DNA of 64,000 bases from Enchytraeus crypticus (lineage: Eukaryota > Annelida > Clitellata > Enchytraeida > Enchytraeidae): assembly GCA_905160935.1 (NCBI GenBank), contig CAJHZI010000417.1:971501-1035500 (forward strand), in the 5' to 3' direction. Position 1 is the first letter of the stretch, and every line of letters starts with the position of its first letter. Under the pieces are notes generated by a model that made no database searches, was not told the DNA's origin, and saw only the letters and a list, made by a program, of their open reading frames with translations. Positions 817 to 62,961 of this stretch are shown here, piece after piece. Both the position numbers and the translations under genes were made by a program.

Positions 817-1048
817 GCGCTAGCTGAGCAGCTGAGAGCCGAGGATGTAGCAGCTGTATGCAGCAGCAGCAGCAGCTGTGCTACCAGCAACAGTCCAGCG
901 TTACTGCTGCACATGTGTGTCGTGCTGCTATGTGAGACAGTGAGTCAGTGCATGATTCAGGCACCAGGGCGCTCTGTGCCTCATCTCATAGCCTATCTAC
1001 AGCACCATCTACCCGCTGATCAGTACGGCATGCTCACTGGTGCTCAAG
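817..1048 (+). CDS. penultimate coding exon of an unrecognised protein
   Basis: The exon is open in one frame for 77 codons plus one base, between an acceptor (ACCGACAG) and a donor (CTCAAG|GTCAGA). The translation starts ALAEQLRAEDVAAVC and ends HHLPADQYGMLTGAQ, and is rich in Leu, Ala, Ser and Cys with a helical, hydrophobic middle (ALLLHMCVVLLCETV). It ends in phase 1, which fits the exon at 2296. I do not recognise the family; a helical-repeat or scaffold protein would fit, but that is a guess. The rest of the gene lies left of the window. Both edges of this exon have tandem copies in the flanking introns. Confidence 0.6.
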
Positions 1049-1116
1049 GTCAGAGATATCTCTTGTATATATAATAGTATCTGTTCATCTAATAGCTCGT
1101 CTCTATAACAGCTACA

Positions 1117-1163
1117 GCTGACCAGTACAGCTCACTGCTACTCAAGGTCTGAGCCAGTAGTAT
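1117..1163 (+). repeat. second copy of the exon end and donor of exon 817-1048
   Basis: The stretch from GCTGACCAGTACAG to CTCAAGGTCTGAG repeats, with substitutions, the last about 35 coding bases and donor of the exon (GCTGATCAGTACGG to CTCAAGGTCAGAG). It lies about 100 bp downstream in the intron and keeps a GT after CTCAAG. Confidence 0.65.
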
Positions 1164-1276
1164 CTCTTTTAGTGCACTGCCCACTGGCAGGTCCATGGTA
1201 TATAGCGCCTCCACTCTTCTCTGTCTTCCGCCTTCCTCTTCATTTCCATATATGAGTGGGTCTTTAAATCATCTCT
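1164..1276 (-). mobile_element. LINE-A 3' end fragment with 14-bp target-site duplication
   Basis: This is a 113-bp antisense copy of the LINE-A 3' end (same sequence as at 18424 onward), with its short CT-rich tail on the left. It is flanked by direct copies of TGAGCCAGTAGTAT at 1150-1163 and 1277-1290. The insertion split the duplicated exon edge at 1117. Confidence 0.75.
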
Positions 1277-1659
1277 TGAGCCAGTAGTATGAGCGCTTAT
1301 ATAAAGGTTCGGATCAGCATGTGAAGAATATCTAATCCAGAACTACCTCGTCGCTTTCGAGACAGAAAACGGACTTTCACGTAGATTTAGCTTTAGCGTT
1401 TAGTCAATGCTATCTATCTGGTAACTTTGATTGTACGCATATTAATAGGTTCATTTTGTTTTAATTGCTAGTTCTTTTATAATTATAATTAATGCATGAT
1501 CCTTCTGAACTCTATTCAAAACTTTTAAATTATATATTTATTAGTAAAATCTAAATTTTTATTTTTTTACTTAGCGCTTTAATCTTAGTCATTTATAAAC
1601 TTAAGTTGCATTATGTAGTTTATGATAATTTACGCACTATTTGATTGATTGCAGGTATA

Positions 1660-2042
1660 TTTTTCCCTGACATCATCCCTGGATGAGGAAACGGACGTTA
1701 AACCTTTATTCATCATCATCATTATCCTACCTTGAATCCCAGTTCAACCAGGGTCACGATACAAATAGACTGTGTCAAATCCTCACTGTCCTACACCACA
1801 CCACCAGCCAATCCCCTATTTGAGACTTCCGTTAAATTTTTGTAGCAATTTCTGGAGCCTAGGCGCTCACCAACCGAATGCCCTTTCTGACGTTGGTTTG
1901 GATCTTAGTGCTTTAGTCGCCTTCTACTACACGTGCAGTCACCGGTTGGTCAATTCTTCAAACAACCCGGACACAACGCGGAGCAACCTTTATATTAATA
2001 AAGATTTAACACGTTAAACCTTTATTATTATTATTATTATTT
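1660..2042. mobile_element. LINE-C-type 3' tail with an inserted SINE3 copy (minus)
   Basis: The segment 1664-1712 carries the tail motif GATGAGGAAACGGACGTTAA that also ends the LINE at 60300. It is followed by (ATC)n and an antisense SINE3 copy (CTTGAATCCCAGTTCAAC start, about 1713-1995), then a second TTAAACCTTTATTATT tail at 2015. No protein is encoded. Confidence 0.6.
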
Positions 2043-2099
2043 TAGTAATTATTATGTTTATCAACTTGAAAGACTGCAGCCTATATGTTAGATGACTCT

Positions 2100-2120
2100 G
2101 AGAGAGAGAGAGAGAGAGAG
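2100..2120. repeat. (GA)n microsatellite
   Basis: Ten GA units in the last intron of the plus-strand gene. LINE-A copies end in (GA)n, so this may be a relic of such a tail. Confidence 0.8.
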
Positions 2121-2295
2121 CACTGTCACCATATACAAATAGGAATAAACATTTTTAAAAATCTGTTTATATTATTGATAAAGATTGATTGATTGTAAGG
2201 CCAGTCAATCGGTTGATCATTTAATCGAACGATGGACTTCTTCTTGGTTGGTTGATATATTTATTAATTATTGATCGTTAATTGATTGATTGTAG

Positions 2296-2474
2296 AACTA
2301 GTATTGAAGCATTTAACACTGGCGCAGTCGAGTAGATCAGGTGACACAGCTAATGGGGATGAGTTAGGAGCTGTGTGCAGAGAATTGAATGAGTCGTTGT
2401 CTGCTGTCAAGCAGCTCGCTCTCACCGTCAAAAAGTCTGCAGCAGCTGCAGCAGCTACGACAGCAGCTGAGTGA
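2296..2474 (+). CDS. terminal coding exon of the same unrecognised protein
   Basis: After the acceptor TTGATTGTAG the frame completes a Glu codon with the G left by the exon ending at 1048, then reads LVLKHLTLAQSSRSGD, a stretch containing AVCRELNESLSAVKQLAL, and an alanine-rich tail ending TTAAE before TGA. The tail is coded by CAG/GCA-like repeats. Phase match and composition support a real C-terminus. A polyadenylation signal follows at 2657. The function is unknown. Confidence 0.55.
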
Positions 2475-5924: not shown

Positions 5925-6135
5925 ACAGTAACATACAATACTTGTCTATTCGATATTCGCCATTTTGTGTAACACATACGACAATAGTTATTTATCCGAT
6001 AGTAATTATATATCCGATAGTCAGTCAAGTTTAAACAGATGATCGTTATGTATTAGATATTAGTTGTATAGCAGATAGTTGTTATCTATTCGATAGTAGT
6101 TATCTAACAGGTAGTTATCTATCCGATAGTAGTTT
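5925..6135. repeat. degenerate 18-20 bp repeat containing the TH stop codon
   Basis: Units of the type GTTATCTATCCGATAGTA run from the 3' flank into the last seven codons of TH (QQTTIG then stop, ACTATCGGATAG on the minus strand). Confidence 0.6.
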
Positions 6136-6293
6136 GCTGTAGTTTGTTGATGGCTGAGTTGAGAGTGGCCACGTCACCCTTGATAACCCTGATCAGATCG
6201 GCCAGACAGCTCGTGCTGGACAGAGCCACAATGGACTGAGTGAACGGGTCGTAGCGAAACTCACATGGGCGCTTTATGCCCGCTGTGTACTGT
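6119..6293 (-). CDS. TH: TH exon 11: end of catalytic domain and tetramerisation helix
   Basis: Follows acceptor TTGATTGCAG. The first base completes the Arg codon from exon 10. It encodes QYTAGIKRPCEFRYDPFTQS, matching the family's RPFSVRYDPYT strand, then the C-terminal helix (LADLIRVIKGDVATLNSAIN) that joins subunits into tetramers, and ends IG then stop as vertebrate TH does. It fuses what are two exons in vertebrate PAH. The last codons lie in a tandem repeat. Confidence 0.92.
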
Positions 6294-6340
6294 CTGCAAT
6301 CAATCAATCAATCAATTAATCAATCAGTGGCTATTATCGA

Positions 6341-6500
6341 TTGCTATTTGGCTGGAGCCAGTGGCCAGTGGCGAAGTCGGTAAGATACTCGACCGCGGAT
6401 CAGTATGTCCCGAGTTCAAATCTTAGGCGCGCCCGTCACAGACATCGCTCTCGAGTGAGCAAACTGACGTTAACATTAGCTTTATTAGCTTTACTTTTTT
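6341..6500 (+). mobile_element. SINE1 in TH intron 10
   Basis: Plus copy with a duplicated head (CCAGTGGCCAGTGGCG) inserted between the real exon 11 and its duplicated edges. Confidence 0.85.
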
Positions 6501-6501
6501 A

Positions 6502-6665
6502 TGTGAACGGGACATTGCGGAACTCACAAGGACGCTTTATGACTGCTATGTAATGTCTGCAATCAATCAATGGTTATCATCGATTTATATGTGAACGGGT
6601 CGAAGTGAAACGCATAAGGGCGCTTTATGCCTTCCGAATATTGTCTGCAATCAATCAACCAATCA
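6502..6665 (-). repeat. two extra copies of the TH exon 11 start with acceptor
   Basis: Two 65-75 bp segments (about 6502-6570 and 6590-6665) each carry ATTGCAG and about 54 bases of exon 11. Both remain open in the exon 11 frame and read HYIAVIKRPCEFRNVPFT and QYSEGIKRPYAFHFDPFT, against QYTAGIKRPCEFRYDPFT in the real exon. Neither has a donor, so they are edge duplications and not full exons. Confidence 0.8.
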
Positions 6666-6934
6666 ATCAATGATTGCTTCCATTAATTAAAGATTGAAAA
6701 TTTACTTAATCTTATGCTTCGAGATCATTATCTATCCATCAATCGATCGATTAAGCATTGAGTCCTGTGATTGAATTACGTGATAGATATATTTAGTATT
6801 TTATTTATCGACAACAAATTTATTAAAATATTTAATTAGAGAGCCTAAATCTCCGATAAGGACAAATGTTTGAAAAATGAAACTTCTTTCTTTAATTCAT
6901 TCATCCAATGCTCAATTAACTCATTCAATCGCCA

Positions 6935-7066
6935 CTGGCGGTGTCGGTAAGATACTCGACCGCGGACCAGTATGTGCGGGGTTCAAATCCTGGACTCGCC
7001 CGTCATTGACATCGCTTTCGAGCGAGGAGACTGACGCTAGCATTAGATCTACCAGCTTTTTTATTC
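6935..7066 (+). mobile_element. SINE1 in TH intron 10
   Basis: Plus copy, lacking the extreme 5' end: GCGGTGTCGGTAAGATACTC, B box GGGTTCAAATCC, TCTACCAGCTTTTTT end. Confidence 0.8.
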
Positions 7067-7668
7067 ATTCCTTCACTCTTTCATCCACTCATTCATTCAT
7101 TAGCTGTAAATCATCTGATCTCATTTATTCGTTCCCTCATTCACTTTACTGAGTCATTCATGCATTCAATCATTAATTAACTGTAAGTCATCTCATTCAT
7201 TCATTCTTTGATTCTTTCATTCATTCATTAGCTGTAATTCCTCTCACCTCATTCATTCGTTTCCTCATTCATTCTTTGATTCTTTCATTCATTCATTAAC
7301 TGTAAGTTCTCCCACCTCATTCATTCATTCTCTCATTCATTCATTCATTCACTCATTCACTCTTCCATTCATTCATTCATTGGCTGTGAATCCTCTGATC
7401 TCATTCATTCGTCCCTCATTCATTTTACTGATTCATTCATTCATTCATTCAATCATTAATTAACTGTACATCATTTAACCTCATTCTTTCATTCATTCAT
7501 TCAGTAACTGCAAGTCATCATTCATTCATTCATTCTTTAATTAGCTGTAAGTCATTTCATCTCATTCCTTTATTCATTCATTCATTCATTAGCTATAAAT
7601 CATTTCACCTCAATCATTAATTAATTCATTCATTCAATCATTCATTCATAAGCCGTAAGTTCTCTCAC
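7067..7668 (-). repeat. tandem array of the TH exon 10 donor edge, about 9 copies
   Basis: Units of 40-55 bp combine (ATTC)n with blocks such as TAACTGTAAGTTCTCCCACC followed by TCATTC. The real junction on the plus strand reads GCCGTAAGTTCTCTCACCTC followed by ATTTTATC. On the minus strand the best units read GAATGAG|GTGGGAGAACTTACAG against ATGAG|GTGAGAGAACTTACGG at the real donor, so several intact decoy donors follow the exon. Confidence 0.75.
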
Positions 7669-7898
7669 CTCATTTTATCTTTCATATCCTCGAAGGACTC
7701 ACAGATGAAGTAAACCTGCTGATAGTCCTGATCGTCATACTTCTGTACGGCTGTTTTGTTCGGCTCAAACATCAGACGCTGCGGCACGTCAGACAGGCTG
7801 TGCTTAAGCTCTCCGTAAGCTGACAGCAAACCGGCCCCGTAGGCTCTCACCTCTCCGTCCTGACGGCACAGCCCAAACTCCACCGTGAACCAGTATAG
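7669..7898 (-). CDS. TH: TH exon 10: catalytic core with the iron-ligand Glu
   Basis: Acceptor TTGATGCAG, donor ATGAG|GTGAGA, length 230, equal to vertebrate PAH exons 10 plus 11. It begins [11 protein letters not shown], whose Glu is the third iron ligand, and continues [16 protein letters not shown], a pterin/substrate-site segment typical of TH. The end [13 protein letters not shown] matches the family. Confidence 0.95.
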
Positions 7899-8175
7899 CT
7901 GCATCAATCAATCAATCAATCAATCAATCAGTCACATGCCAAACTTAAGCCTAAACCAGTATAGCTGCATCAATCAATCATTCATTCAATAAATCAGTCA
8001 CGTGCCAAACTTTAGCCTAAACTTATATAGCTGCATCAATCAATAATTCATTCTCTAAATCAGTTATATTCCGGACCCCATCAAGAATCAATAACACTGT
8101 AGCAATCAATCAACAAATCACTCACAGGCCATGCTACGCAGTGAACCACTACAGCGTATCATTCAATCAAACTCT
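7899..8175 (-). repeat. 63-64 bp tandem copies of the TH exon 10 acceptor edge
   Basis: The plus-strand segment CCAGTATAGCTGCATCAATC at the junction recurs at about 7955 and, diverged, at 8020 and 8140. Each copy holds the first 9-12 exon bases, the CAG acceptor and the CAAT repeats of the intron edge. Confidence 0.75.
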
Positions 8176-9009
8176 ATCTATAGCCAGCATATCCAGGTGC
8201 TTCCATGCAATGTCAATAACGACGCAAGCGGAGTCGTTAAAAAAATAAGCGGGAAGTGAAAAAGTAGGAAGTTTTAAAAATAAGGGGAAGTGGAAAATCG
8301 TCCAAATATGCGGTATGAGTTATTTATGCATCTTTGCTCAAAGGGGACGGACGCACCTGAGTATATATGTATCAATCATTCAATTAGCAAGCTGCTGAAA
8401 TTACATTCAGTTTCACTTGGAATTAATATACATGTAGATGTATAAATATACAGTATAATTCAAACTATACATTTAAAATGACCGACATCAAACTTAAACC
8501 ATTGTAATAGCATCACTACAATATTTTAAGAATTCATTAAAATTTATTGTAACAACACTGATTAATAACATCCGAATATCGATATATAATTAGTAGATTA
8601 ATGGCCTAAGGCCTAATTCCATTGAATTTGAACAGGTGTGCCAGAAGAGCTACTTCAATCAACTCAGTCTAACCTTCACGATATGTAGTATAAAGTTAAC
8701 CAGTCAATCACTTCTTAATTCAAAAAGCAAAAAACAAGAGGCCGAGTTCTTCCGTGAATATAACTATGCAATAATATTAATTTTAACTATAAATCAATCG
8801 CACTTCGAATTACTCTGTGAACTCAATCTCCGATCACTAATTGGTCACTCAACAGTCAACATGGTACCTACAACTTCAGCAGATCCAGTTTATAACGTAC
8901 ATGTAAACCATTTACCACAGGATGGTCATCGTTAGCAACGCAAGGTGAATAATAATTATTTAAATATAGAATAAACATCCTCCTTGATTACACAACATAA
9001 AATTCAAAT

Positions 9010-9100
9010 GCTAAAAGCTAGTTAAACTTTAGTTTCCAGTCTCGAAAGATCAGTGACCTAGTGAGCTCTGGATTTGAACCCTGCGCCTAGAGATACGCAG
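9010..9100 (-). mobile_element. diverged SINE1-like fragment
   Basis: Antisense B box (GGATTTGAACCC) and a degraded tail TTTAGTTTCCAGTCTCGAAAG. Old, partial copy. The rest of 8180-9110 shows no gene. Confidence 0.45.
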
Positions 9101-9207
9101 ACGAATAAATAACTCAATCATGCTACAGGTTCAGCGCACAGATCATACGATGAAGCTGTTAATGATATCCAGCTCATACTCTGCACATACAACAGATTTG
9201 CACAGAC

Positions 9208-9334
9208 CGTGGCGATCTTTTCGATGTCTTCATCAGAGGCGCCGAGAGAGGCGAGACCAATCTCCTGAGAGAACTGGGCGAAGCTCGGGTCACTCAGCAT
9301 AGGAACGTGGCCCAGCAGCTCATGCACGCAGTCA
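9208..9334 (-). CDS. TH: TH exon 9: iron-binding HELLGH segment
   Basis: Acceptor TACTGCAG, donor GCCACG|GTCTGT, length 127, equal to vertebrate PAH exons 8 plus 9 (70+57). It begins by completing Pro and reads [20 protein letters not shown], with both histidine iron ligands, then [20 protein letters not shown]. All family-invariant residues I can place are present. Confidence 0.95.
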
Positions 9335-9905
9335 CTGCAGTACAATATAATCAATACAACACAATACAATACCGTATAATACAATACAACACAATACAAT
9401 ACCGTATAATACAATACAACACAATACAATACAGTACAGTACAACACAAAGCAACGCAGTACAGTACAAGTCAGTACAGTGCAGCGCAGCACAATACAGT
9501 ACAGTACTGTACAGTACAATGCAGCACAATACAATACAATATAATACAATAAAATGCGACACAGTACAAAACTATACAGTGCAATACAACATAAAACAAT
9601 ACAATACATTGCATTACAACACAATACAATACACTTCAATACAATACTAGATTTATACTAGAGTTAATAGAAGTAATGATGAGTATAATACCATGTAATA
9701 CAGTACAATACAATTGAAAACGATGAGAAGGAACAATTAAATAAAATATAGCTACAATAAAATGTAATACAATGTAATTCAATATGAAACAAAGCAATGT
9801 AATACAATACAATAAAATAGAATAAATGCAATACAATTGTATAACAAATTACTATACGGTACACTAAACTATAATACAATACATAATGCATGCAGTATCA
9901 TGATA
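9335..9905. repeat. degenerate pentanucleotide array (ACAAT/ACAGT) before TH exon 9
   Basis: About 570 bp of (TACAA)n and related units such as CAGTACAATACAGTACAGT. On the minus strand this is TATTG/TACTG repeated up to the acceptor TACTGCAG, so the acceptor itself looks like one unit and similar TACTGCA/TGTACTG words recur upstream. A 9-kb stretch of alternate-frame openness here is an artefact of this repeat. Confidence 0.85.
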
Positions 9906-10287
9906 CACAAGGTAATACACTGCAATACTACATTTCACCATTGTTGCAGTGTTACTAATACCGGCTACAGCAGTAACTAACTTGTAACATATATTCAGAT
10001 AAATTGCACTGAATTCAATTCCCATCCCTGTAGGCCTACATTATTCTTCGCAATTAATATATGAATTATTATCAACAAAATTCAAAAGTTATCTGACAGA
10101 TGAAGTTTATAATATTAGGAAGTATAGAAAGTCGTCATGTAGAATAGGCGTAGTTACAGGCTCTTAGGCAAGTCCACAAAGACACACGCAACAAGGTCAA
10201 TATTTAAGCGTACTCAGTTATATGTTCAGAGTTAAAAAAAAGACATTGTAACTGAGAAATTAGATAAAATACGACAGGCATTAAAGC

Positions 10288-10627
10288 GCTACTAACGGGT
10301 CTTCTGTATGATCAGCTTAGCGCTGTGTCTGATGTACTGAATGCTACTAACGGTTCTACTGTATGATCAGCTTAGAGCTGTGTCTGATGTACTGAATGCT
10401 ACTAACGGTTCTTCTGTATGATCAGCTTAGAGCTGTATCTGATGTACTGAATGCTACTAACGGTTCTACTGTTTGATCAGCTTAGAGCTGTGTCTGATGT
10501 ACTGAATGCTACTAACGGTTCTACTGTTTGATCAGGCTTAGAGCAGTGTCTGATGTACTGAATGCTACTAAAGGTTCTACTGTATGATCAGCTTAGAGCC
10601 GTGTCTGATGTACGGAATGCTACTAAC
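10288..10627 (-). repeat. 55-bp tandem copies of the TH exon 8 end and donor, 6 extra copies
   Basis: Unit starts at about 10288, 10343, 10398, 10453, 10508, 10564 and 10619; the last is the genuine exon 8 end. Each unit contains about 40 bp from the coding sequence of [14 protein letters not shown], the donor ACC|GTTAGT and 13-15 bp of intron ending CAG. The copies have lost the reading frame but most keep the donor. Confidence 0.9.
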
Positions 10628-10763
10628 GGTTCTACTGTATGGTCAGGCTTAGAGCCGTGTCTGATGTACTGGGTGCACTGGAACACTCTGAACGCGAGGC
10701 TTGCCAGGAAGTCTCTAGCGGTCAACAGTCCAGCGACAGGACGCAACTGAAATCCGCTCTGTC
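10628..10763 (-). CDS. TH: TH exon 8: substrate/pterin-site segment
   Basis: Acceptor TTGATAG, donor GAACC|GTTAGT, length 136, identical to vertebrate PAH exon 7. It reads [20 protein letters not shown] then [20 protein letters not shown], nearly invariant in TH. Its last 40 or so bases are the seed of the 55-bp array that follows in the intron. Confidence 0.95.
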
Positions 10764-10769
10764 CTATCA

Positions 10770-11140
10770 ACATCAAATAACAATAATAGTAATAATTATT
10801 ATTATTATTTATTATTATTATAGTAATACCAATGCCCTGGCATTAGCCCTGGCAATGCGTTGCTGCTGGCTCAGCTGCCAATAGGAAGTCACTTAAGTAG
10901 GCCGCAGTCTCTAGAATAATAATAATAATTATTATTATTATTATTATAATTATAATTATAATTATAATTTCTCGGAAATTATATTAATAATACCTCGGGT
11001 TCTTTACATCCGAGTAAATAAATTAGTATTATTTTTAAATAACATTAACAGTGTTAATAATAGAAATAAAATAATAATAATAACAAAAAAAGATATAATA
11101 ATAATAATAATAATTCTAAACTAACAATATAATTTTAAAA
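10770..11140. repeat. AT-rich trinucleotide repeats (AAT/ATT)n in TH intron 7
   Basis: Several (AAT)n, (ATT)n and (TAATTA)n blocks, including a stretch able to fold (TAATAATAATTATTATTA at about 10918). No gene seen. Confidence 0.8.
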
Positions 11141-11516: not shown

Positions 11517-11547
<31 letters not shown>

Positions 11548-52536: not shown

Positions 52537-53239
52537 TAGAGTGCACGAACAGTAGAAGTAGAGTGTAATGAATATTAGATTTCCTGATAATTAGAGGTTA
52601 AAATCCCATCCAGAATTGTGATATGAAGCAGACGTTACAGAGTTTTTGATGTTGCTCAGTATAATAGACTTAACGGAAAACTTTTCACTGATGATCATAT
52701 AGTTAAAACTTAATTATGTCAGGCTTGCTGGCTCATTCAAGAATCTTAATTACTTTACACTAGCACATTTAAGATATCTTTCGGTCTCTGTTGTTTAAGT
52801 TAATTGACTGTCAATCATTCAAAATCGATATAATAGATATAAATGTATATATATAAGCAGAAGCAGTAGCATGATTGGTTAGGTTTGTGCAATTGTAAGC
52901 CAATGGGTGCAGAGTTGAAATTCAGTACTCTTGAAATGGCTAATAGGCTTTCGAGGCAGAAAACAAAATAAGGCTTTAAATAAGGCTTTAGCCTTCTACC
53001 TCTTCTGCATTTTACAATCCTGACCTCATAATCCTCAACTGGAATTTAAATTCTAATAACTTAGCAATTATAAATTTTTAGAGGACTTTTCATAGGTCTT
53101 CTTTTATCGAAAAGGACAGCAATGACTCGGGTCCTATAAGTGTATAGGCATGTATTCAGGAGATCCTTAAGTGTAGTTCAAGTAGACATGTATGCTGGTA
53201 GCCTGTAAGTAAAGAAGACTTGTATTTATTGTTTGGCAG

Positions 53240-53286
53240 GGGATGAAGGAGATAACTTCTACGTTATAGACGCTGGTGAAGTGGAT
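53240..53286 (+). CDS. PRKAR1: PRKAR1 exon 5 (47 nt)
   Basis: Acceptor TTTGGCAG, donor GTGGAT|GTTAGT. Completes Gly and reads DEGDNFYVIDAGEVD, matching DEGDNFYVIDQGETD. The donor at GAT, rather than one base pair later, keeps phase with exon 6. Confidence 0.92.
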
Positions 53287-53501
53287 GTTAGTAGGTTTTT
53301 ACTTTTTAGTATACATAGGAATTGATTACTATATTTCTTTTCTTTGTACATCACTTTCATTTGTGGTATGAGTGTATTTACTAATACAACATAAGTTCAA
53401 TTGTAATATAAGAAGCTTCAGTGCTTTGTGGCAATAACTACAATCGTTTGAGATACATCAAATATCAATTGAGTCGATATGCAGTCATTCATGTACATAT
53501 A

Positions 53502-54448
53502 CAGGGTGAGTAAAAAAAAGATTACACTTGCAAAAACTTTGAATATCTCAGGCTATTGCTAATATTTTCCAATATAACTTTTACCAATTACTAAAGGACT
53601 AATTTCTGAAGGGGTGGCCAATTTTCATCCATTTTGGTACTTAGATTGGCCAGTTATGAAAGTTTCAGCAGAGCAAACCCCCATTTTTAACGTACTGTAA
53701 ATATAAATTCTATTTAATTTTATTTTTATTTTGGTGCTCAAAAGGGCCGTTGTAGTAGTTCAGAAAGTACAAGTTGTATCTGCTAGCATTGCTGACTATT
53801 CGACTATTCGATATGCTTTCCTCCCGCTGCTACACAGGACTGCAGTCGCTTTCGGAACGCTAGGACAGCCTTGTTGATTCCTTCTTGGGGCACCCAGATT
53901 GATTGTAGCACTTCCTGAAGTTCTGTCTTGTTTTTAGGCTTCGGCTGGTGTTTCTGATAGAGATGCAGCATGGTTCTCTAGACATAGTAATCCAGAGGAT
54001 TTAGATCGGAAGAGTTTGGAGGCCATTCATTCTTCTTAATGAAATCCGGGTTTCTCTCGCTGATCCATTCCTGTGCATGACGAGATGCATGAGCTGGAGT
54101 ACCATTCTGCTGAAAGATGAAACTGCTTGGTAGAAGAGCATAGCAATCATCAAACAGCTCCGGAAGCAAAGTATTGACGTAATACTGTGAGTTCACCTTT
54201 ACCTTCTCGGCAATGAAGTGCATTCTGCCCTTACCGTTGTAGCAAACGCCATTTTTAGGTAAAATTGGGGGGTTGCTCTGCTGAAACTTGCATAACTGGC
54301 CAATCTATATACCAAAATGGATGAAAATTGGCCACCCCATCAGAAATTGGTGTGTTAGTAATTGGTAAAGGTTTTATTGGAAAATATTTACAATAGCCTG
54401 AGATATTCAAACTTTTTGCAGGTGTAATCATTTTTTTTACTCACCCTG
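53502..54448 (-). mobile_element. Tc1/mariner transposon, 947 bp, TIRs about 195 bp, partial transposase
   Basis: CAGGGTGAGTAAAAAAAAGA at the left and its inverse at the right, flanked by TA. The minus strand at 53978-54223 encodes part of a DDE transposase: FIFQQNGTPAHASRHAQEWI and WPPNSSDLNPLDYYV, the second and third catalytic regions of the mariner type. Most of the transposase is absent, so this is a non-autonomous or deleted copy. Confidence 0.9.
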
Positions 54449-54477
54449 TATAGCTACAGTATGTATAATATCCATTG

Positions 54478-54740
54478 AGCCTTCTTGTGTCCGGGTTGCC
54501 AAAGAATAGACCAACCGTAGACTGCACGTGTCATAAAAGGCGACAAAATACTAAGTTCCAAGCCAACATCAGAAAGGAATTTGGTTTGTGAGTGCCTAGG
54601 CTCCTGAAACAGCTACAAAATTTTCTAAAATGAATGGAAGTTTCCTCGCCCACAGAGAGGAGTGGAGAAGGTCTATTCATGTCCACACTCTAGTTGGACT
54701 GGGATTCAAGGGAAGACGATGATGATGATGATGATGGTAT
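54478..54740 (+). mobile_element. SINE3, plus orientation, with (GAT)n tail
   Basis: Runs from TTCTTGTGTCCGGGTTGCC to GTTGGACTGGGATTCAAGGG, then AAGACGATGATGATGATG. Best complete copy of this family in the window. Confidence 0.75.
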
Positions 54741-55314
54741 AGTATCCATGATAAATATGTCCATACTCATATGAGAACTAAATTGATTTGTACAATGATT
54801 TATAATTATATTAATTCAAGCATAATAGATAGAGTTAAAAAGGTCCCATGGCTGCGTCTAATGTTACATTTTGTTGTTTCTAACTGCACCATGTTTGCTA
54901 TTTTGTTACTATGCCTCTTTTTATCCAATCAAGAAACTATTTTTTCCTTCTTATAATTGTATTTATTTTTTGTGTATTCATTGAATATAATAATTATTAA
55001 AATTGGAATCTTACAAATAAACTAGAGAAGTGAGCTGAAACAGTGGCGAATTGCTTGTTTTGATGTTTTTGCTGTTTTGGTGCTGAATTTACTGTATGTT
55101 ATTGCTTCTCTGTTAACTATACCTATGTAGGGATTGTGGACATGCTTGTTTCATTGTGTGTATCTCTTGGAATAACGATTGGCTGGTACAGTGTAGTATA
55201 TGTTGAATTATGCTAATTACTCCTGAGATTAGTGTTACTGTACTTTGTACGATTGAGTAATTAGTACAAGTAATATTTGTATGAGTAGATTTATGTTAAT
55301 GTATATGAACATGT

Positions 55315-55550
55315 GCTCCCCGTGTTATGCTCGGGTGTGGTTGGACCACTGCAGAATGTGGCAACCGCAAACAATCTGCCTTGTGTACGTAAGAGGCGAC
55401 TAAAGGCAGGAGATGAGGATGGCAAGAGGGGACCCACCTCACCATGAAATATTTTCCCCCATGATTAAATGGTAATTAATCCACCTAATTGAGGAAGGCA
55501 ATGGGAAACCACCTCAGAAGCCATATTTTTTCCAAGCTATAGGCTACATA
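55315..55550 (+). mobile_element. SINE4, left part (split by LINE-A)
   Basis: TGCTCCCCGTGTTATGCTCG to AAGCTATAGGCTACATA. It resumes at 56206 after the LINE insertion. Confidence 0.85.
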
Positions 55551-56205
55551 TATAATATGAGAATATACAATATGAGAGTGTCCAATAATTAAGGTGAGGT
55601 TAATATCACAATAAATGGTACGAAATTGGAACAGGTAAGGAGTTTCAAATATTTGGGTCATACTATAACCGATGACGGGAAATGTGAGACGGAAATATGC
55701 AGTAGGACTGCACAAGTAAAAGCGGCCTTTGGTAGTAGAAAAGAACTATTAACAAAAAGTCTAAAGAAAGACACAAAGATGAAAACTTTGGTTTGGACCA
55801 CGCTATTGTATGGATGTGAAACATGGACCTTAAGGAAGGAAGACATTAGGAAACTGGAGGCATTGGAAATGTGGATTTGGAGAAGAATGGAGAGGATTAG
55901 CTTGACTCAAAAGGTTACAAATGAGGAAGTCCTGGAGAGAGTTGGCACAGATAGACAGTTGATAAATGTATTAAGAAATAGGAAGAAGAGATGGATAGGA
56001 CACATTCTAAGGGGGGACGGTCTATTAAAAGAGGTCATAGAAGGTAGAATGGAAGGAAAAAGAGGCAGGGGCAGGCCGAGATTAGGTATGTTAGATGATT
56101 TAAAGACCCACTCATATGTGGAAATGAAGAGGAAGGCGGAAGACAGAGAAGAGTGGAGGTGTTATGTACCATGGACCTGCCAGTAGGCAGTGCACTAAGA
56201 AAGAG
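55551..56205 (+). mobile_element. LINE-A 3' fragment inserted in SINE4, 12-bp TSD
   Basis: ATAGGCTACATA is present at 55539-55550 and again at 56206-56217. The insert carries an open frame for the last 186 codons of the LINE-A protein (55626-56186), with RSFKYLGHTITDDGKCETEI, WTTLLYGCETWTLRKEDIRK, WIWRRMERISLTQKVTNEEV and RKKRWIGHILRGDGLLKEVI. The 3' end is GGCAGTGCACTAAGAAAGAG. It looks the youngest copy here, although truncated. Confidence 0.93.
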
Positions 56206-56352
56206 ATAGGCTACATAAGGTATGGATATAGACTTTGTGAAGGGATTAACTTGTTGATCTAAGGAGTGCTCTTATGGAGCGAGAAAACAGACTTTGAGTA
56301 TGAATATGTACCTTGAACCTGCCACTTGGCAGTGTACTGAAGAAGAAGAAGA
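56206..56352 (+). mobile_element. SINE4, right part
   Basis: Continues AAGGTATGGATATAGACTTT to GGCAGTGTACTGAAGAAGAA. The last 30 bp resemble the LINE-A 3' end. Confidence 0.85.
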
Positions 56353-56716
56353 ATATGAACATGATGTATTTGTACATGTAGATTTATGTTAAAGTGTTTG
56401 AACATGATGTATTTGTATGTGTAGATTTGTTAACATATGTGAACGTGATGTATTTGTAAATGTAGATATATTTTAATGTGTGAACATGACATAGTTGTAC
56501 GTGTATATTTATGTTAACATATGTGAACGTGATGTATTTGTAAATATAGATATATTTTAATGTGTGAACATGACGTAGTTGTACGTGTATATTTATGTTA
56601 ACATATGTGACTTGATGTATTTGTAAATGTAGATATATTTTAATGTGTGAACATGTATTTGTACGTGTAGATTTATGTTCACGTATATGAACGTGATGTA
56701 TTTGTAATACATGTAG
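56353..56716 (+). repeat. tandem array of the PRKAR1 exon 6 acceptor edge
   Basis: Units of about 43 bp: GTAGATTTATGTTAACATAT, GTGAACGTGATGTATTTGTA. The real edge is ACATGTAG|ATATACGTTAACGACACGTA then TGTGAGC. GTAG, ATAT/TTAT, GTTAAC and ATGTGA recur in order in every unit, about 8-9 copies. Confidence 0.85.
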
Positions 56717-56815
56717 ATATACGTTAACGACACGTATGTGAGCACCATTGGTGAGGGATTCAGCTTTGGAGAGCTGGCTCTGATCTACGGTACACCTCGT
56801 GCTGCTACCATCAAG
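56717..56815 (+). CDS. PRKAR1: PRKAR1 exon 6: phosphate-binding cassette of site A
   Basis: 33 codons, phase 0. [20 protein letters not shown] then [27 protein letters not shown] is the cassette whose Glu and Arg bind cAMP. Donor ATCAAG|GTTCCT. Confidence 0.95.
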
Positions 56816-56889
56816 GTTCCTGTCGATTGTCATCTAGTTGTTAGTCACTAGACACCATGGTTATCATCATTACTACTGACGATGATGAC

Positions 56890-57012
56890 AGTGGCGATGT
56901 CAGTAAGATTTTCGACCTAGGATCAGTATGTGCGGGGTTAAAATCCTGGGCTCCCCGTCACTGACATCGCTTTCTAGTGAGGAAACTGACGTTGACATTA
57001 GCTTTTTTTAAT
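56890..57012 (+). mobile_element. SINE1 in PRKAR1 intron 6
   Basis: GACAGTGGCGATGTCAGTAA to GACGTTGACATTAGCTTTTT. Confidence 0.8.
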
Positions 57013-57411
57013 CAATGAGAGCTGTTGGGTGTTCTAAGCAATAGCATTTTGTATTTATATGTATGGATGAATCAGTACTTTATGTCCTTGCAGAACACGA
57101 AGTCCAGTGCATGCACCTCACTGATTGGAAAGACTGGTGTTTATTGTAGTGCTCTCTATTGTTGTGTGAAAGCTTATGAAATTATTAAAGTTCAATCCTC
57201 AGTACTGTTCAAGTGTAAGTGAAACATTTGTGTCATCGGTGCAGGATGTTGTGTCTTTGTCTCTAATATCTAATTAGAACATGTGAGGCTAAAAGTCACG
57301 CCAAAACTCTTGCAATGATTGTTGTGTGTTACTCCTACATAGTACAAATAAAGAATTTATTTGCTTGGTATGGACTTTTCCATTCATCAAGAACATGTGA
57401 CAAGTTTTTAA

Positions 57412-57525
57412 GCTGGTAAGCTACTTGAAAGCGTTGCCAGTGACGAGCGAACCCAGAATTTGAACCCCGCGCGTACTGGTATTTGATCTGTGATCAAATA
57501 TCTTAACGACATCGCCACAGTGGCG
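57412..57525 (-). mobile_element. SINE1, diverged, in intron 6
   Basis: AAGCTGGTAAGCTACTTGAA, B box AATTTGAACCCCG, AACGACATCGCCAC end; internal insertion near 57480. Confidence 0.65.
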
Positions 57526-57724
57526 ATGTTTTTTAAAATCATGTTTTATAATTTTTGCAACCATGTTAAATGACAAAACGTAATCACTTGTGTAATCATC
57601 TCGCTCTTCAGCTCAGCATATTGTTAGAGATGAAGTTCTAATGTAATCTGAGGCCTCTTTCACAAGAGATCGTGTAGTTAGATTGCTTTACTGTGATTAT
57701 TTATTCGCTATAAGCAGTATACTG

Positions 57725-58140
57725 CAGTATACTCTCTCTAGTTTTCTGCCAAGTCGCAGATCCAAGATACATATTCCTACTTACATACAGCTTTCATTCT
57801 CCACAAAGAGAACTTGACCAATTAATGAGTGAATCCTTAACAAAATACTATGGTTTATCAGCACCTTAATGTTGCCTGGGATACTGAAGAATAGACCAAC
57901 CATCACCTGCCCGTATCGTCGGAGTCGATAAAGCATAAACTGAGGAAAGTAACGGGAAACCACCTCAGAAGCCATATCTTTTTCTAAGTGATAGGCTAAG
58001 GTATGGGTAAGGCATGGTCTTTTGCGAAGGGCTTAATTTGTTGATTTATGAAATGTTCTATATGGAGCGTTACAGCAGACCCGAGAATATGAATATGAAC
58101 CTGCCGCTGGGAAAAACACTGGAGAGTGAGAATGTAGCCT
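57725..58140. mobile_element. two SINE4 fragments in inverted (head-to-head) arrangement
   Basis: 57725-57865 is antisense 3' end (CTCTCTAGTTTTCTGCCAAG). 57880-58135 is sense (ATACTGAAGAATAGACCAAC to GGGAAAAACACTGGAGAGTG). Confidence 0.65.
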
Positions 58141-58321
58141 ATAACTTGGGAGTTTAAGGTGATTTCCAATTATCTTCTTTAATTCTTGCTCATTCGCCTC
58201 TTACGAATTCTGCAGTTTACGGTTGATGGATCTTAAGCGTACCAGATAAAACACGTGGACTATTTTACTCTATGCTAACCAATTTTTGATTTAAGTAATA
58301 ACTGTGTATTGTTGTCACTAG

Positions 58322-58381
58322 GCCAAGACTGACGTAAAGCTGTGGGGCATCGACAGAGACAGCTATCGAAGAATTCTCATG
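58322..58381 (+). CDS. PRKAR1: PRKAR1 exon 7 (60 nt)
   Basis: Acceptor TTGTCACTAG, donor CTCATG|GTTTGT. Encodes [20 protein letters not shown], 18 or more of 20 residues as in human RI-alpha; it contains the site A capping region. Confidence 0.96.
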
Positions 58382-59079
58382 GTTTGTCTATTGTCTATTC
58401 TAATAAAAACTAATACATGCACAACGATTAGCATCTGATTACAAATAAATGCCTACATAGCTGTCATAGATATTTTAACATAAATACTACACTAAAGCTA
58501 TAACATCACTTCCAGAGAATAGAAGCATGAGTAGTAGTTAAACACATAGAGATATAATGTTGTAGATAAACATAATGAAATCTTCACATTCTTAAATTCA
58601 CTTCTAGCGAAAACGAAGGAATTTACACTTGTAACGAAAGTTCTGTTGACTGCAGTCGACTGCAAAGCAAGGGATCTTTATTTGACCTCGTTAAAGTAAA
58701 TAATTATGCATATTAAATAAAATGTACATTTAGATAAAGGTAAAGATTCGTTTGTTTTTCTCTTACTGATGAACCGGGAACAAGACGGGTCGTCATACTT
58801 AAGTGCTCTTATAGTGTTAAACATTGCTAACTATGCTAACTATGCTACTATGAAGGAAATCTTTTCTAGAGAGTAAAGATGAAATAGGGGAAGGGGGATT
58901 ACAGAATATAATATATACCGAGAATGAGTAAATTGAGCAATTTTTGTGAACGCTTCCTAAATAGTGCATAGCATTTTGAATGCCTTCAGAATGCAAATTA
59001 TCTTTTGCATTATCCTCAAATAGTGGTATTTGCTGGTATGTGTGAGGATTCAGTACTAAATACATAAGTAAACATAAAA

Positions 59080-59360
59080 TAATAATAATAATAACCTCCA
59101 ATTGTTTCTTTAGAAGTGTCATGGCCGGCGACCGGTCTTCGAGACTGCTTTAAGTTTTCCTGGCAGATTATCAACCTTTCCATGATTAATTATATCTTTG
59201 CTACTAATAGCATCAATTGGCTTCAAGCTCTGATACATGATTAAGCCTCCATGGGTCCAAGGAGATATCCATCATTTGTTGACTGAGCTGACTTTGAACC
59301 CAGGCCACCTGCATCAAAGGCGAACACTCTATTTTGCGCTATGTACCCTCCTCTTTGAAT
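59080..59360 (-). mobile_element. SINE2, minus orientation
   Basis: Starts (AAT)nAACCTCCAATTG and ends with the antisense tRNA-like head (TTTGAACCCAGGCCACCTGC, TGTACCCTCC). Confidence 0.85.
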
Positions 59361-59379
59361 ATTTGAATGAGTATATAAT

Positions 59380-59453
<74 letters not shown>

Positions 59454-59454
59454 A

Positions 59455-60302
59455 TTTTCATAAAGTTTCAGAATCTTGCTCTTTTACCTTCTCAATCCGC
59501 CAAAAATCTTGGAGTCATATTTGATGAAAACCTTGACTTTAAATGCCATATCTCTTCTGTTTGTCGCGCTTCTTTCTTTCAGATTCGTCAGATTAGGCAA
59601 ATACGTCCATCCCTTACTAGAAATTCAGCCACTATCCTTGCTAATTCTATAGTTCATTCAAAGCTCGACTACTATAATTCATTATTACATGGGTTGCTTA
59701 CTTCTTCTCTCAATCGTTTGCAGCACGTCCAAAATTCTCTTGCATGTGTTGTTTGTAAGCCCTCTCGACTTCAATTTTGCTCTCTTTCTCTACTTCGCAG
59801 TCTTCATTGGCTCCCTGTTAATCAACGCATAAAATATAAAATAGCTCTATTAACTTTTAAAACTCTGCGATTTGGCAAGCCTTCGTACTTATCTGAAATT
59901 CTTCTTCCCTATCGTCCCTCACGTGCACTTCGCTGCACTGATTGGCAATGCCAATCTTCTCTCAGTTCCAAATATTCTCACGTCATTGGGCAGACGTTCA
60001 TTTTCTTACGCAGCACCCACAATCTGGGACTCTTTACCTGCTAATCTTCGCTCTTGTTCTTCTCTTTCAACATTCTCTAGCAAGCTTAAAACTTAACCTT
60101 TTCCCACCATAGACATAATCAATCTACCTTGACCGTTTTTTTATCACCGGACTGGCTTTCGTTTAGGACCTTACTTCTCCGCAGCACATTTCTTTCGCAG
60201 ATTGGTCTGGGTGAATTGATCTGTAGTGATGTGTGCTGTTGGGGACGTCTCTGACATCATCCCTGGATGAGGAAACGGACGTTAAACCTTTATTTATTAT
60301 TA
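59455..60302 (+). mobile_element. LINE-C (CR1/L2-like), 3' part, flanked by (TA)n
   Basis: The plus strand encodes the C-terminal reverse transcriptase region: SAKNLGVIFDENLDFKCHIS, LANSIVHSKLDYYNSLLHGL, SLLRSLHWLPVNQRIKYKIA, then after one frame change near 59930 SFSYAAPTIWDSLPANLRSC. The 3' UTR ends CATCCCTGGATGAGGAAACG then GACGTTAAACC and (TTA)n. (TA)n tracts bound it at 59380-59450 and 60303-60382. The 5' portion is missing. Confidence 0.9.
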
Positions 60303-60340
60303 TATATATATATATATATATAATTATATATATATATATA

Positions 60341-60381
<41 letters not shown>

Positions 60382-60560
60382 GGTGTATATATGAATGATA
60401 ATATGATCTTATCTGTATGTGCAGGAAATGGCATTTATAAAAGATAGGTTTGTACTTTTTGTGTGTATATGCTTAAATGTGCGATGTGTTCTTGTTTGTG
60501 TATTTATAGGAATATACAATAGGAGTAACTATTGAAATTTAATTGTCTTTACATTTACAG

Positions 60561-60621
60561 GGAAGTACTATACGTAAACGTAAGATGTATGAAGAGTTTC
60601 TCAGCAAAGTTCCTATTCTTG
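60561..60621 (+). CDS. PRKAR1: PRKAR1 exon 8 (61 nt)
   Basis: Acceptor ACATTTACAG, donor ATTCTTG|GTTAGT. Encodes [20 protein letters not shown], matching [20 protein letters not shown], the helix joining the two cAMP sites. Confidence 0.96.
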
Positions 60622-61140
60622 GTTAGTGTCAGTTCTATCCAAATCTTGTGAACTCTTCCTTTTATATTTTTCTATCTAAAGTTGCTATGCTCTCTCATAT
60701 TGCTCTCTTTCAGCATTTCCATTTGATATTACGGTAGCGAAGTAAAAATACCTCATTACAAGAAATTAGTACTCAAATGATACTTTTATTTGTAATGAAG
60801 TAGCCAGTATGTCTTGAGTATTTGTTACTTGTAACTAAAGTTCGAGCTTCTCAAACATCTAATCAAGCGTATCAGATAATTACATCACATTTGATATTCT
60901 GGAAGCTTGAATCGCTGTGTTAAGTAGCTGTGCGCCTGTTTTCGGGCGTTTAAACCCGAATATATGGTTTGAATACACCGCGTTGAACAAGGATTCTGTG
61001 TCTTAGAATATACTACAATCAGTGAAAATATTTCAATCAGTGCATCAGATGCCCTTGTGCTTCGGTTCATGGCATTCCATGCTGCCTGACGTTTAACAAA
61101 ACTACTATGGTGTATCCGACCATATGTTTGAATGTTTGTC
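60622..61140. other. PRKAR1 intron 8, first part, nothing recognised
   Basis: Unique AT-rich sequence. Confidence 0.4.
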
Positions 61141-61284
61141 ATTTCAAAGCATAGGTAGTGGCAAACTGAGAGAATGCAAGCACAACTGTGATGAGGTGGT
61201 AGTTCCTCAATCAGTGAATCATTAACGGTTTCTGATGTAATTAGGACGAGATTAACATCAATTATCTGAACTTGCTATAATTAG

Positions 61285-61695
61285 TCAACTATATCGTCTT
61301 CGTCTCTTTTGACTACTTATGCTTAGCTTCTGTCGATTTTTAAACCCAGCCCACCAGTCTTTCCCGGCTATTTTATTTTCTTGCCAGCTAGCAGGCATAC
61401 TAAGACTGTTTGCCTTGGCAAACTCATATGCTAACTCAGAGCATTGTTTTAGAGACAGTCCATGAAATTGATCTGCCAATGACTTCACATGTGCAGCTAG
61501 ATCTTGTTCCATTTGAGGACTGAACACAAAATGTCTAAGTGTTATGGCTGCATAGCCCACGACACTATTAGGATTAGTGTCACGCTTATCTATGAATCGC
61601 TTCAAAGTCATTCGATCCACATTGAAGTCCTTGGCAGCAGCCCGGATAGGTATTCCACCTCGAACTGCTTGAGAAGCTCGTTCTAAAACGTCCAC
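61285..61695 (-). pseudogene. pogo/Tigger-type transposase N-terminal fragment
   Basis: 136 codons on the minus strand. An N-terminal Psq-type helix-turn-helix (RASQAVRGGIPIRAAAKDFN then VDRMTLKRFIDKRD) is followed by a CENP-B-type segment (GLSKLQ-like LSLKQCSELAYEFAKANSLS, IAGKDWWAGFKNR), the order seen in pogo, Tigger and jerky-like proteins. The catalytic domain is absent on the left, so the frame ends early after SQKRRRR. It may be an exon-like start of a deleted element. No flanking duplication was found. Confidence 0.75.
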
Positions 61696-61893
61696 TGGTA
61701 CTTTACCTTTCTCAGATATTCTTTTATATATACGCGGTATAATGTTTAATCAATAACCTAAAACAATAAAAACTGGCATTAATTATAATTAGACGTAAAT
61801 TGTAGGCCTATGATCGATGAACAGCAGTCAATTAACGATCAACATCCTAGTAGGCTTATTAAATAACTAGGCCTACAGAACTAACTCTGATTC

Positions 61894-61969
61894 GGGTTAG
61901 TTGAGCCATCTTGAATAGGGTGAGTTGAGCCGGCTCAACTCACCCGATTCAATATGGCTCAACTAACCC
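61894..61969. repeat. 76-bp near-perfect palindrome (38-bp arms)
   Basis: GGGTTAGTTGAGCC and GGGTGAGTTGAGCC, then their inverses; 36 of 38 positions pair, with no loop. A fifth related word, GGCTCAACTAATCCACC, is at 62333. It lies 200 bp upstream of the transposase fragment, so it may be transposon end sequence. Confidence 0.9.
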
Positions 61970-62473
61970 CATTACTACCAATCTCTATTCAGCAGTAACC
62001 TATAAAAAACCGAGCCGTGTAGCCACCAACGAAATACGGCTATTTGTGTAGCAACACCATATGAATTATATACTACTACTTTAACTAAAAGCATATTGTG
62101 CGTATAAAAATAGAAGACAATGAAGTTTAAGCCTAGATTTTCGCTTTTCACTCAAAAAGTGTTTATTTTCAACAAATTGCAGAAGCGAAATTCGTCGCCA
62201 TCTTTAATATTTTAATTAGTGCAGAGTTGCCAAACTCTACAAAGTAACAAACTCTTCATAACTCTACAAACCATTCTCTGCCGGTTACCATTCTTACTGA
62301 GGCAGTAATAGCTGATGGATCAACTGTCCCGCCGGCTCAACTAATCCACCCTCCACCATGGGACAGCTTGATTTCGTGAACGACCGGCTACATGAGGCTT
62401 TTTTACACTTCACTGGTCAACCACTCTGCTTAGCCGAGCCAGCTCCTTTGAGCTTATCGTCCTAGCTCCTTCC

Positions 62474-62689
62474 TCATTGGCGTAAGATTAATTTTAAATT
62501 TGACAATGTTTCTTCAATATTGTTCAAATTAGTTAGGAGCAATGCAAATTCCCATTTTTCCATCCTCATGATGGGAAACTCTTTCATCTTTTCCACCGTG
62601 TAACGCGGTAAGTCAGTGAAATGCTTATTCTCATCGATAAATGAGATTGCCGACAAAATATCGGCGATCTCCTGTCTTGCTTTATTCAC
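62474..62689 (-). CDS. small open frame, 71 codons, unknown
   Basis: Reads [20 protein letters not shown] and later [20 protein letters not shown]. Composition is protein-like (charged helices). It sits between the pogo fragment and the exon 9 array and could be part of the element. No family recognised; no start or splice support. Confidence 0.2.
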
Positions 62690-62694
62690 CTTTA

Positions 62695-62839
62695 TTTTAC
62701 AGTTGCTGGTGTTTTATTGTAAAACAGAAAGTGAACCAATGGGAGCGCATTTTACAGTTGCTGGTGTTTTATTGTAAAATAAAAGGTTTGGACCAACGAG
62801 AACTTATTTTACAGTTGGTGGTGTTTAATTGTAAATCAG
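62695..62839 (+). repeat. 55-57 bp tandem copies of the PRKAR1 exon 9 acceptor edge, 2 extra copies
   Basis: TTTTACAGTTGCTGGTGTTT starts at 62695, 62750 and 62807. Each unit continues to a (CAG/AAAG) acceptor position and the first about 20 exon bases (TTTGGACCAATGGGAGCGC in the real exon; GTGAACCAATGGGAGCGC and TTTGGACCAACGAGAAC in the copies). Confidence 0.92.
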
Positions 62840-62961
62840 AGAGTTTGGACCAATGGGAGCGCTTGACAGTGGCTGATGCGCTGGAGCCCGTGCAGTTCGC
62901 TGATGGGCAGGAGATTGTGAGGCAGGGAGAACCCGGTGACGACTTCTTCATTATCACTGAG
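62840..62961 (+). CDS. PRKAR1: PRKAR1 exon 9: cAMP site B
   Basis: Acceptor GTAAATCAG, donor ACTGAG|GTAGCT. Completes Glu and reads [20 protein letters not shown] then [20 protein letters not shown], matching [20 protein letters not shown] and GEPGDEFFIILE. Confidence 0.96.

Follow-up and report, generated by a model that had tools for sequence, protein, structure and literature searches.

Minisatellite-like tandem duplications that cross splice junctions have been described in amphioxus as 'mirages', in Adh3, the globins BflGb6 and BflGb9, troponin C and PGBD5 (PMC3087553, PMC3902484). As described there, mirages copy the end of an intron together with the edge of the exon at both 5' and 3' boundaries, with units of 10–72 bp in Adh3, 150–160 bp in the globins and 60 and 108 bp in PGBD5, and many of the copies carry AG/GT signals (PMC3087553, PMC3902484). 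The inner copies of the BflGb6 mirage were found to evolve in concert, with the cluster boundary exempt, length instability of mirages was reported and normal splicing was suggested (PMC3087553, PMC3902484). Related descriptions include the gain of introns by tandem duplication, in the AGGT model of Rogers and the potato RdRp case (PMC4974935), and the Caenorhabditis elegans intronic minisatellite CeRep25B, which is over-represented near alternative splicing regions (PMC4039745). The arrays analysed here, from the annelid Enchytraeus crypticus, are the known mirage kind in a second phylum. An earlier note on this DNA had assigned them to no named class, a statement that the amphioxus work overturns.

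The window, i.e. the whole 64,000-nucleotide stretch that was analysed, contained 42 junctions in TH, PRKAR1 and UFL1, which were modelled by hand from homology, splice signals and reading phase. At 8 of the 42, the authentic junction was the exon-proximal unit of a tandem array, and TRF itself joined the array to the exon in 7 of these 8 cases, the eighth being the PRKAR1 exon 3 donor. The earlier count of at least eleven arrayed junctions in three genes is thereby lowered to eight in two genes, TH and PRKAR1; no UFL1 junction qualified. The phases of neighbouring exons agreed with use of the exon-proximal sites in all 7 exon pairs that were read through.

The TH gene (6119..28331, minus strand) was identified by a match to Pfam PF00351 and by reading, and was modelled with 11 coding exons, from the coding part of exon 1 (28254–28331) to exon 11 (6119–6293), with the exon 2 donor placed by reading phase. 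Its exon 1 donor (AGAG|GTAAGT) lay in a 40-bp array of 5.6 copies (28043..28265, minus strand; exon link by TRF), and its exon 3 acceptor, CACACCAG|GTAAATG (boundary 15330/15331), in a 28-bp array of 6.2 copies (15319..15491, minus strand; exon link by TRF) in which AG was retained in 4 of 5 decoys. The exon 3 donor (boundary 15092/15093) was spanned by a 49-bp array of 2.4 copies with an exonic part of 40 bp (15017..15132, minus strand), the exon 8 donor, CC|GTTAGT (boundary 10627/10628), by a 55-bp array of 6.9 copies with an exonic part of 44 bp (10288..10671, minus strand), and the exon 10 acceptor, GATGCAG|CTATACTGG (boundary 7898/7899), by a 66-bp array of 2.7 copies (7888..8064, minus strand), all three as delimited by TRF. 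The exon 2 acceptor at 18312 was not straddled, as a gap of 10 bp separates its 33-bp neighbour array of 2.8 copies (18323..18416, minus strand) from the exon, which the array only abuts. A TTGTA microsatellite likewise abutted the exon 9 acceptor and did not include the exon.

PRKAR1 (47056..63566, plus strand; 10 exons modelled inside the window) was recognised by an RIIa domain above the cut-off and by cNMP-binding domains that fell under the cut-off and were assigned by reading. The 46-bp array at its exon 3 donor (49480..49980, plus strand; boundary 49497/49498) was delimited by TRF at 49525–49980 (9.8 copies); its first unit begins at about 49480 and is the donor itself, diverged beyond the reach of TRF, so that the link to the exon was made by reading. 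TT replaced the donor GT in all 10 copies found there. The exon 6 acceptor, CATGTAG|ATATACGTTAACG (boundary 56716/56717), belonged to a 41/84-bp array (56356..56727, plus strand; TRF, 8.9 copies at 41 bp and a match of only 71%), and the exon 9 acceptor (boundary 62839/62840) to a 57-bp array of 3.0 copies with an exonic part of 23 bp (62694..62862, plus strand; TRF). A 23-bp array in UFL1, the plus-strand gene at 817, was rejected as a straddling case: it occupies 117..727 (plus strand) and ends 64 bp upstream of the chosen acceptor (boundary 791/792), and the sole likeness to the exon that was seen was a CAGCTG-rich stretch of 14 bases at 821, which lies some 30 bp into the exon.

Because the window had been chosen for its arrays, more weight was given to an independent sample of 147 junctions from six other gene sets, selected irrespective of repeats. 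This sample comprised 89 exons: myosin (43 of 81 listed), AMP-binding (13/16, excluding L052–L054, three identical single-ORF matches), kinesin (7/128), SNF (6/93), kinase (7/137) and AAAH (13/18 matches, the five of TH being excluded). Junctions were called by script with generic splice-site weights, as opposed to weights trained on the E. crypticus genome, and 31 of 178 candidate edges were removed for weak site score or distance. The script called straddles at 13 of the 147 junctions, and these 13 were read individually, the remaining 134 junctions being script-called only. On reading, 10 straddles held (~7% of sampled junctions), including one (L041) in which a stop at its start proved to be the acceptor TAG, and one (L030) whose donor had been placed 27 bp too far and was reset to an upstream site. 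Two acceptor straddles (L082 and L083) were rejected, their true acceptors lying further in, and one (L072) was ambiguous, its overhang of 35 bp exceeding its 31-bp period. A further good straddle, at the L050 donor, lay outside the 147 owing to the score filter. The copied exonic parts were coding sequence that matched the family models, such as the AMP-binding motif SGSTGKPKG in L058 and TRDSLKILGTVGEP in L063. Mirages are apparently common in E. crypticus.

Across the 19 accepted arrays, units measured 28–130 bp and both donor and acceptor edges were hit. A genome-wide search with the TH exon 8 and exon 1 arrays returned no second full match beyond the window in the one assembly searched; PAH/TPH otherwise matched at the paralogous exon (77% and 75%), and the exon 1 array had one partial match (73%, at C675). 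For these two arrays, the dispersal expected of an introner-like or transposed element was therefore not found. The variation of units from site to site and the gene-private nature of the two searched arrays argue for a repeated process rather than one spreading element, as the earlier note had proposed.

Decoy donors and acceptors are present in the copies, as the earlier note had also stated. GT or AG was intact in 46 of 64 decoy copies in the accepted arrays, compared with 44.6 expected from unit divergence, i.e. decoy sites decay at the same pace as the rest of the unit. These figures supersede a count of 58/78 versus 54.7 expected, for which both rejected junctions, L072 and the L030 donor at its wrong position had still been counted. 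The copy finder was ungapped with a threshold of at least 60% identity and missed some copies (at PRKAR1 exon 6, 1 was found). Adjacent decoys resembled one another (0.87) more than they did the authentic unit (0.83). That decoys might be kept for a purpose, as spare sites for robustness or for regulated alternative splicing, would fit the many copies at authentic strength, e.g. the five additional copies at TH exon 1 whose donors score the same as the authentic one (11.8 bits with generic splice-site weights). We regard this as very improbable, since intact decoys were no commoner than divergence predicts, 45 of the 46 would break the frame if used (by a shift or an added stop; 41/42 in a superseded count without L030 and L041), and frame-preserving spacing occurred in 13 of 46, near the chance value of one-third.

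Tandem copy number is frequently mis-assembled, and the arrays could in principle be artefacts of a hybrid (MaSuRCA) assembly. The published E. crypticus assembly is indeed described as a PacBio/Illumina hybrid (PMC8460440). The copies nevertheless differ from one another by single bases and are spread across several genes and contigs, in donor and acceptor contexts, such that an artefact is extremely improbable.

Whether arrays are commoner at junctions than chance was answered in opposite ways by two measures. Straddle counts were not above random placement, either in the sample (13 vs 11.3 expected, P = 0.33) or within gene spans in the window (7 vs 4.1 expected, P = 0.11; relative to placement across the whole window, 7 vs 3.0 expected, P = 0.04), and they stand against the reading that arrays are seeded at exon edges. 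They were set aside as a test of seeding because most random straddles overrun one unit into the exon: the exonic overhang stayed within one period in all 19 accepted straddles (L072, if accepted, would break this rule), compared with 31% per straddle under random placement. Minisatellites covered ~1% of exon interiors and 9% of the last 10 exonic bases. These observations could reflect a selection filter, in which duplication occurs uniformly, exon interiors are cleared of it by purging, and duplications across a junction survive through one good copy, with no hot spot; straddles not significantly above random and overhangs never longer than one unit are both what it would give.

Purging, however, creates no excess, and array ends were in excess at junctions. 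In the sample (120 arrays, 147 junctions), 30 array ends lay within 50 bp of a junction compared with 9.4 expected, approximately threefold. By bin, there were 12 ends versus 4.7 expected in [-50,0), 18 versus 4.7 in [0,50) and 12 versus 18.0 in [100,300), so the two bins that flank the junction held 2.6 and 3.8 times as many ends as expected; a single array may count at more than one junction, equally in the data and the null. The direction was kept at four minisatellite thresholds. The L083, L082 and L030 junctions had been corrected with the arrays already seen, ahead of the final count, and without these corrections the ends were 11 and 17 versus 4.9 and 4.8. Among 87 arrays mostly outside dispersed repeats, the excess was weaker (21 ends within 50 bp vs 7.8) and still reached 2.1 times (9 vs 4.2, P = 0.012) and 3.3 times (12 vs 3.6, 0 of 500) on the two sides. 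It was weak on the intron side of donors (5 vs 1.9, P = 0.045; with arrays confined to introns, 5 vs 3.1, P = 0.18) and on the exon side of sampled acceptors (5 vs 2.6, P = 0.11). In the window, 9 ends fell within 50 bp of a junction compared with 2.3 expected, an excess that came from the exon side (7 vs 1.2, P = 0.0007) rather than the intron side (2 vs 1.1, P = 0.31). The earlier proposal that duplication starts at exon edges thus gains support from array ends, although not from straddle counts, and we consider the selection filter somewhat unlikely.

Minisatellites covered 20–23% of intron at 40–200 bp from the exon and 9–14% past 200 bp, and dispersed repeats, under a crude mask that may include some tandem DNA, covered 20% of intron within 50 bp of the exon and 30–35% past 50 bp. 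The distribution of dispersed repeats would fit a reading in which ancestral introns of tens of bases placed the seeds beside exons and later insertions grew the middles, so that clustering would be a relic of age. This alone does not explain the exon-side excess of array ends, and the excess remains, somewhat smaller, in non-dispersed DNA (old unrecognised insertions would escape the mask); we judge this history to be unlikely. Microhomology was looked for at two-copy duplications: 3 or more additional bases matched in 17 of 34, a pattern indistinguishable from a third partial copy. The GATT microsatellite, as a candidate seed at acceptors, gave 5/12 with versus 13/71 without (P = 0.12).

We conclude, with good confidence, that the arrays are junction-spanning minisatellites of the mirage kind, probably produced by local tandem duplication that prefers edges, with neutral decoys and presumably exon-proximal splicing. 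Duplication with breakpoints flanking an exon edge would copy 8–83 coding bases, the splice signal and part of the intron. The extra copies would sit in the intron and be spliced out, because the exon-proximal copy still gives the correct junction; later, copy number would shift and the intronic copies would homogenise with one another. Decoy sites would drift neutrally, and therefore splicing must as a rule take the exon-proximal copy. Tandem duplications probably begin preferentially near exon edges, and it is a tentative suggestion, one that we hold at somewhat under even, that exon edges are tandem-duplication hot spots in this annelid lineage, with several percent of junctions accompanied by near-identical decoys that are ignored. 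If so, mirages would have arisen independently in annelids and cephalochordates, and would both lengthen introns and serve as a natural experiment, on the scale of a genome, on how splice sites are chosen. Where splice sites of equal strength stand in a row, tens of bases from one another and presumably with a single one in use, they form a natural test of such choice, in which factors beyond sequence (exon proximity, first-come recognition and exon definition) become testable. If the pattern holds genome-wide, it would also be a mechanism of intron growth that can be counted, and would supply material from which new introns could arise.

A curiosity from a handful of lancelet genes is now extended to another phylum. 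Like mirages, the E. crypticus unit consists of exon edge, splice signal and intron (8 of 42 window and 10 of 147 sampled junctions), the arrays occur at 5' and 3' exon boundaries, and the two that were searched are locus-specific; the difference is one of host range, annelid here and cephalochordates there, not of structure. Intron gain in the AGGT model and potato RdRp shares a boundary-crossing tandem duplication that gives extra splice signals, but makes a new intron, whereas the E. crypticus copies lie inside an existing one (PMC4974935). The internal tandem repeats of human duplicated genes similarly alter gene structure through minisatellite expansion, but concern segmental-duplication paralogues, and junction-anchored arrays are absent from the described parts (PMC2812944). 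CeRep25B is one repeat family, whereas the E. crypticus arrays are copies of their host junction (PMC4039745). Beyond the descriptions of mirages, E. crypticus adds their presence at ~7% of sampled junctions, a measured clustering of array ends near exon edges, and decoy sites that decay no faster or slower than the unit around them.

Arrays reported by TRF with a period of 15 or more and a score of 80 or more straddled 7 of the 42 splice junctions that we modelled in the window from homology, splice signals and phase (20 in TH, 19 in PRKAR1 and 3 in UFL1), and an eighth, the PRKAR1 exon 3 donor, was recognised by reading rather than by TRF. TH was assigned from a PF00351 family match, the C-terminal exons of UFL1 from a PF25041 match, PRKAR1 from an RIIa match above cut-off together with cNMP-binding matches below cut-off and reading, and an ACBP exon in the window from a family match. 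At all 8 straddled junctions the authentic site is formed by the unit adjoining the exon, with the remaining copies extending into the intron; TH exon 8, for example, ends in ...ACAGTAGAACC with GTTAGTAGC following across the junction, and its 55-bp unit, 44 bp of which are exonic, is present 6.9 times. Phases of the flanking exons matched the exon-proximal site in 7/7 exon pairs read through (TH E1-E2, E3-E4, E8-E9 and E9-E10; PRKAR1 E3-E4, E5-E6 and E8-E9). Since the UFL1 array does not straddle a junction and the arrays at the TH exon 2 and exon 9 acceptors only abut them, there are 8 such junctions in two genes, not at least eleven in three genes as the earlier note had claimed.

Other repeats were observed in the window. 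Immediately upstream of their acceptors, TH exon 9 has a TTGTA microsatellite (9341-9647) and TH exon 7 a GT-rich one (11745-11978). TH exon 3, with arrays at both edges, also contains an in-frame 30-bp tandem duplication (15233-15299, minus strand; APATDDVTQR/APASDDVTQ). A 36-bp array (6034-6134, minus strand; 2.9 copies) runs from the TH stop codon region into the 3' UTR, so duplications also straddle a coding-sequence edge that has no splice site. Translations revealed four reverse-transcriptase-like open frames, which we take to be of LINE type, at 18958-19647 (-), 30574-31161 (-), 55593-56183 (+) and 59379-60041 (+), and a short dispersed element, presumably SINE-like, that carries variants of ...GDVGKILDRGSVCAGFKSWARPSLTSLSSEETD... 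at 2759-2959, 5525-5719, 6874-7149, 13752-14015, 22694-22897 and 50065-50244.

An independent sample of exons was taken, blind to repeats, from part of the listed family-search matches (myosin, AMP-binding, kinesin, SNF and protein kinase), with the TH paralogues on contigs C126 and C760 added; 89 exons gave 178 candidate edges, 147 of which passed score and distance filters. Straddles were called at 13/147 junctions and read individually (10 valid, 2 wrong calls, 1 ambiguous), the remaining 134 being script calls only. Three AMP-binding matches left out of the sample (G000:C181:850345-851400, C181:862660-863715 and C488:14196-15251) have the same score, 279.5 bits; the open frames around them are 2282-2600 aa long, and the two C181 matches lie on opposite strands.

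Straddle counts did not significantly exceed those from random placement of the same arrays over the loci (sample, 13 vs 11.3 expected, P 0.33; window, 7 vs 4.1, P 0.11), which speaks against preferential seeding at exon edges. This count is less informative because under random placement the exonic overhang is at most one unit in a minority of straddles (31%), whereas it never exceeds one unit in the accepted ones (19/19). The informative measure is the position of the array's exon-proximal end relative to the junction. Sample array ends within 50 bp numbered 12 vs 4.7 expected on the exon side and 18 vs 4.7 on the intron side (vs 6.6 with arrays confined to introns), with a deficit at 100-300 bp (12 vs 18.0); the intron-side excess was weak at donors (5 vs 1.9) and the exon-side excess weak at acceptors (5 vs 2.6). 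Window ends gave 7 vs 1.2 on the exon side and 2 vs 1.1 on the intron side. Arrays mostly outside dispersed repeats, as defined by comparing sample loci with one another (87/120), gave 9 vs 4.2 and 12 vs 3.6, respectively. Minisatellite coverage agrees with this clustering, at ~1% in exon interiors and 9% over the final 10 bases of exons; in introns it is 20-23% between 40 and 200 bp from the exon and 9-14% past 200 bp (paired near vs far, 0.18 vs 0.08, n=67, P 0.014). Microsatellites at the sample loci showed an intron-side excess near junctions (15 vs 3.2) and no exon-side excess. The proposal that arrays are commoner at junctions than by chance thus holds for array ends within 50 bp but not for straddle counts.

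A whole-genome search with the TH exon 8 and exon 1 arrays found no other full occurrence of either; the exon 8 query also matched, over the coding part, paralogous exons on C126 and C760, and the exon 1 query gave one additional partial match (73%). Junction-near and other arrays were alike (median period 41 vs 33, copies 3.3 vs 2.9; 45 vs 143 TRF rows). Ordinary local tandem duplication would be the simplest origin of junction-spanning arrays, probably tolerated across junctions because every spare copy is intronic, with some added preference for exon edges. Tandem GATT/TTGA tracts, which contain TTGAT, presumably a branch-point-like motif, occurred in the last 60 intronic bases of 12/83 sample acceptors and at 0/64 donors (background ~3%). 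Such tracts might promote slippage at acceptors; their association with arrays there was not significant (P 0.12).

Accepted arrays numbered 19: eight in the window, ten in the sample, and L050, a straddled locus outside the 147. Of the 64 intronic copies found in them, 46 kept GT or AG, vs 44.6 expected from how far the other unit positions have diverged. These counts give no hint of selection for or against the decoys, a reading qualified by the PRKAR1 exon 3 array, which accounts for 10/18 lost sites. Many decoys, such as five TH exon 1 donors, score as high as the authentic site; 13/46 intact decoys keep frame and 1/46 keeps it without a stop. Judging from sequence, distal copies would either be rarely used or have their products degraded.

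The genome analysed, in which the window lies at G000:C324:971501-1035500, comprises 524.19 Mb in 802 contigs. Contig C802 (15,205 bp) contains COX1, and over the 15,000 bases examined its recognised protein genes all lie on one strand, in the order nad3-nad2-cox1-N-cox2-D-(168-bp gap)-Y-G-cox3-Q-nad6-cob-W-atp6, which we take to be the annelid mitochondrial order; the gap between D and Y has room for atp8. COX1-like fragments on C361, C424, C796, C373 and C166 (the last under the family cut-off) are perhaps nuclear copies. The published E. crypticus genome paper gives 525.2 Mb, 910 scaffolds and 35.4% GC, and a 15,205-bp mtDNA with Lumbricus gene order and one non-coding segment relocated (PMC8460440).

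The earlier note knew of no named class for such arrays, yet one exists: in amphioxus, junction-spanning minisatellites are called mirages and are known from the genes Adh3 and PGBD5 and those for globins and troponin C (PMC3087553, PMC3902484). Among the papers listed from an open-licence library, we found no annelid report of such arrays. Earthworm metallothionein genes have first-intron minisatellites, and the consulted part of that work makes no mention of repeats across splice junctions (PMC12783039).
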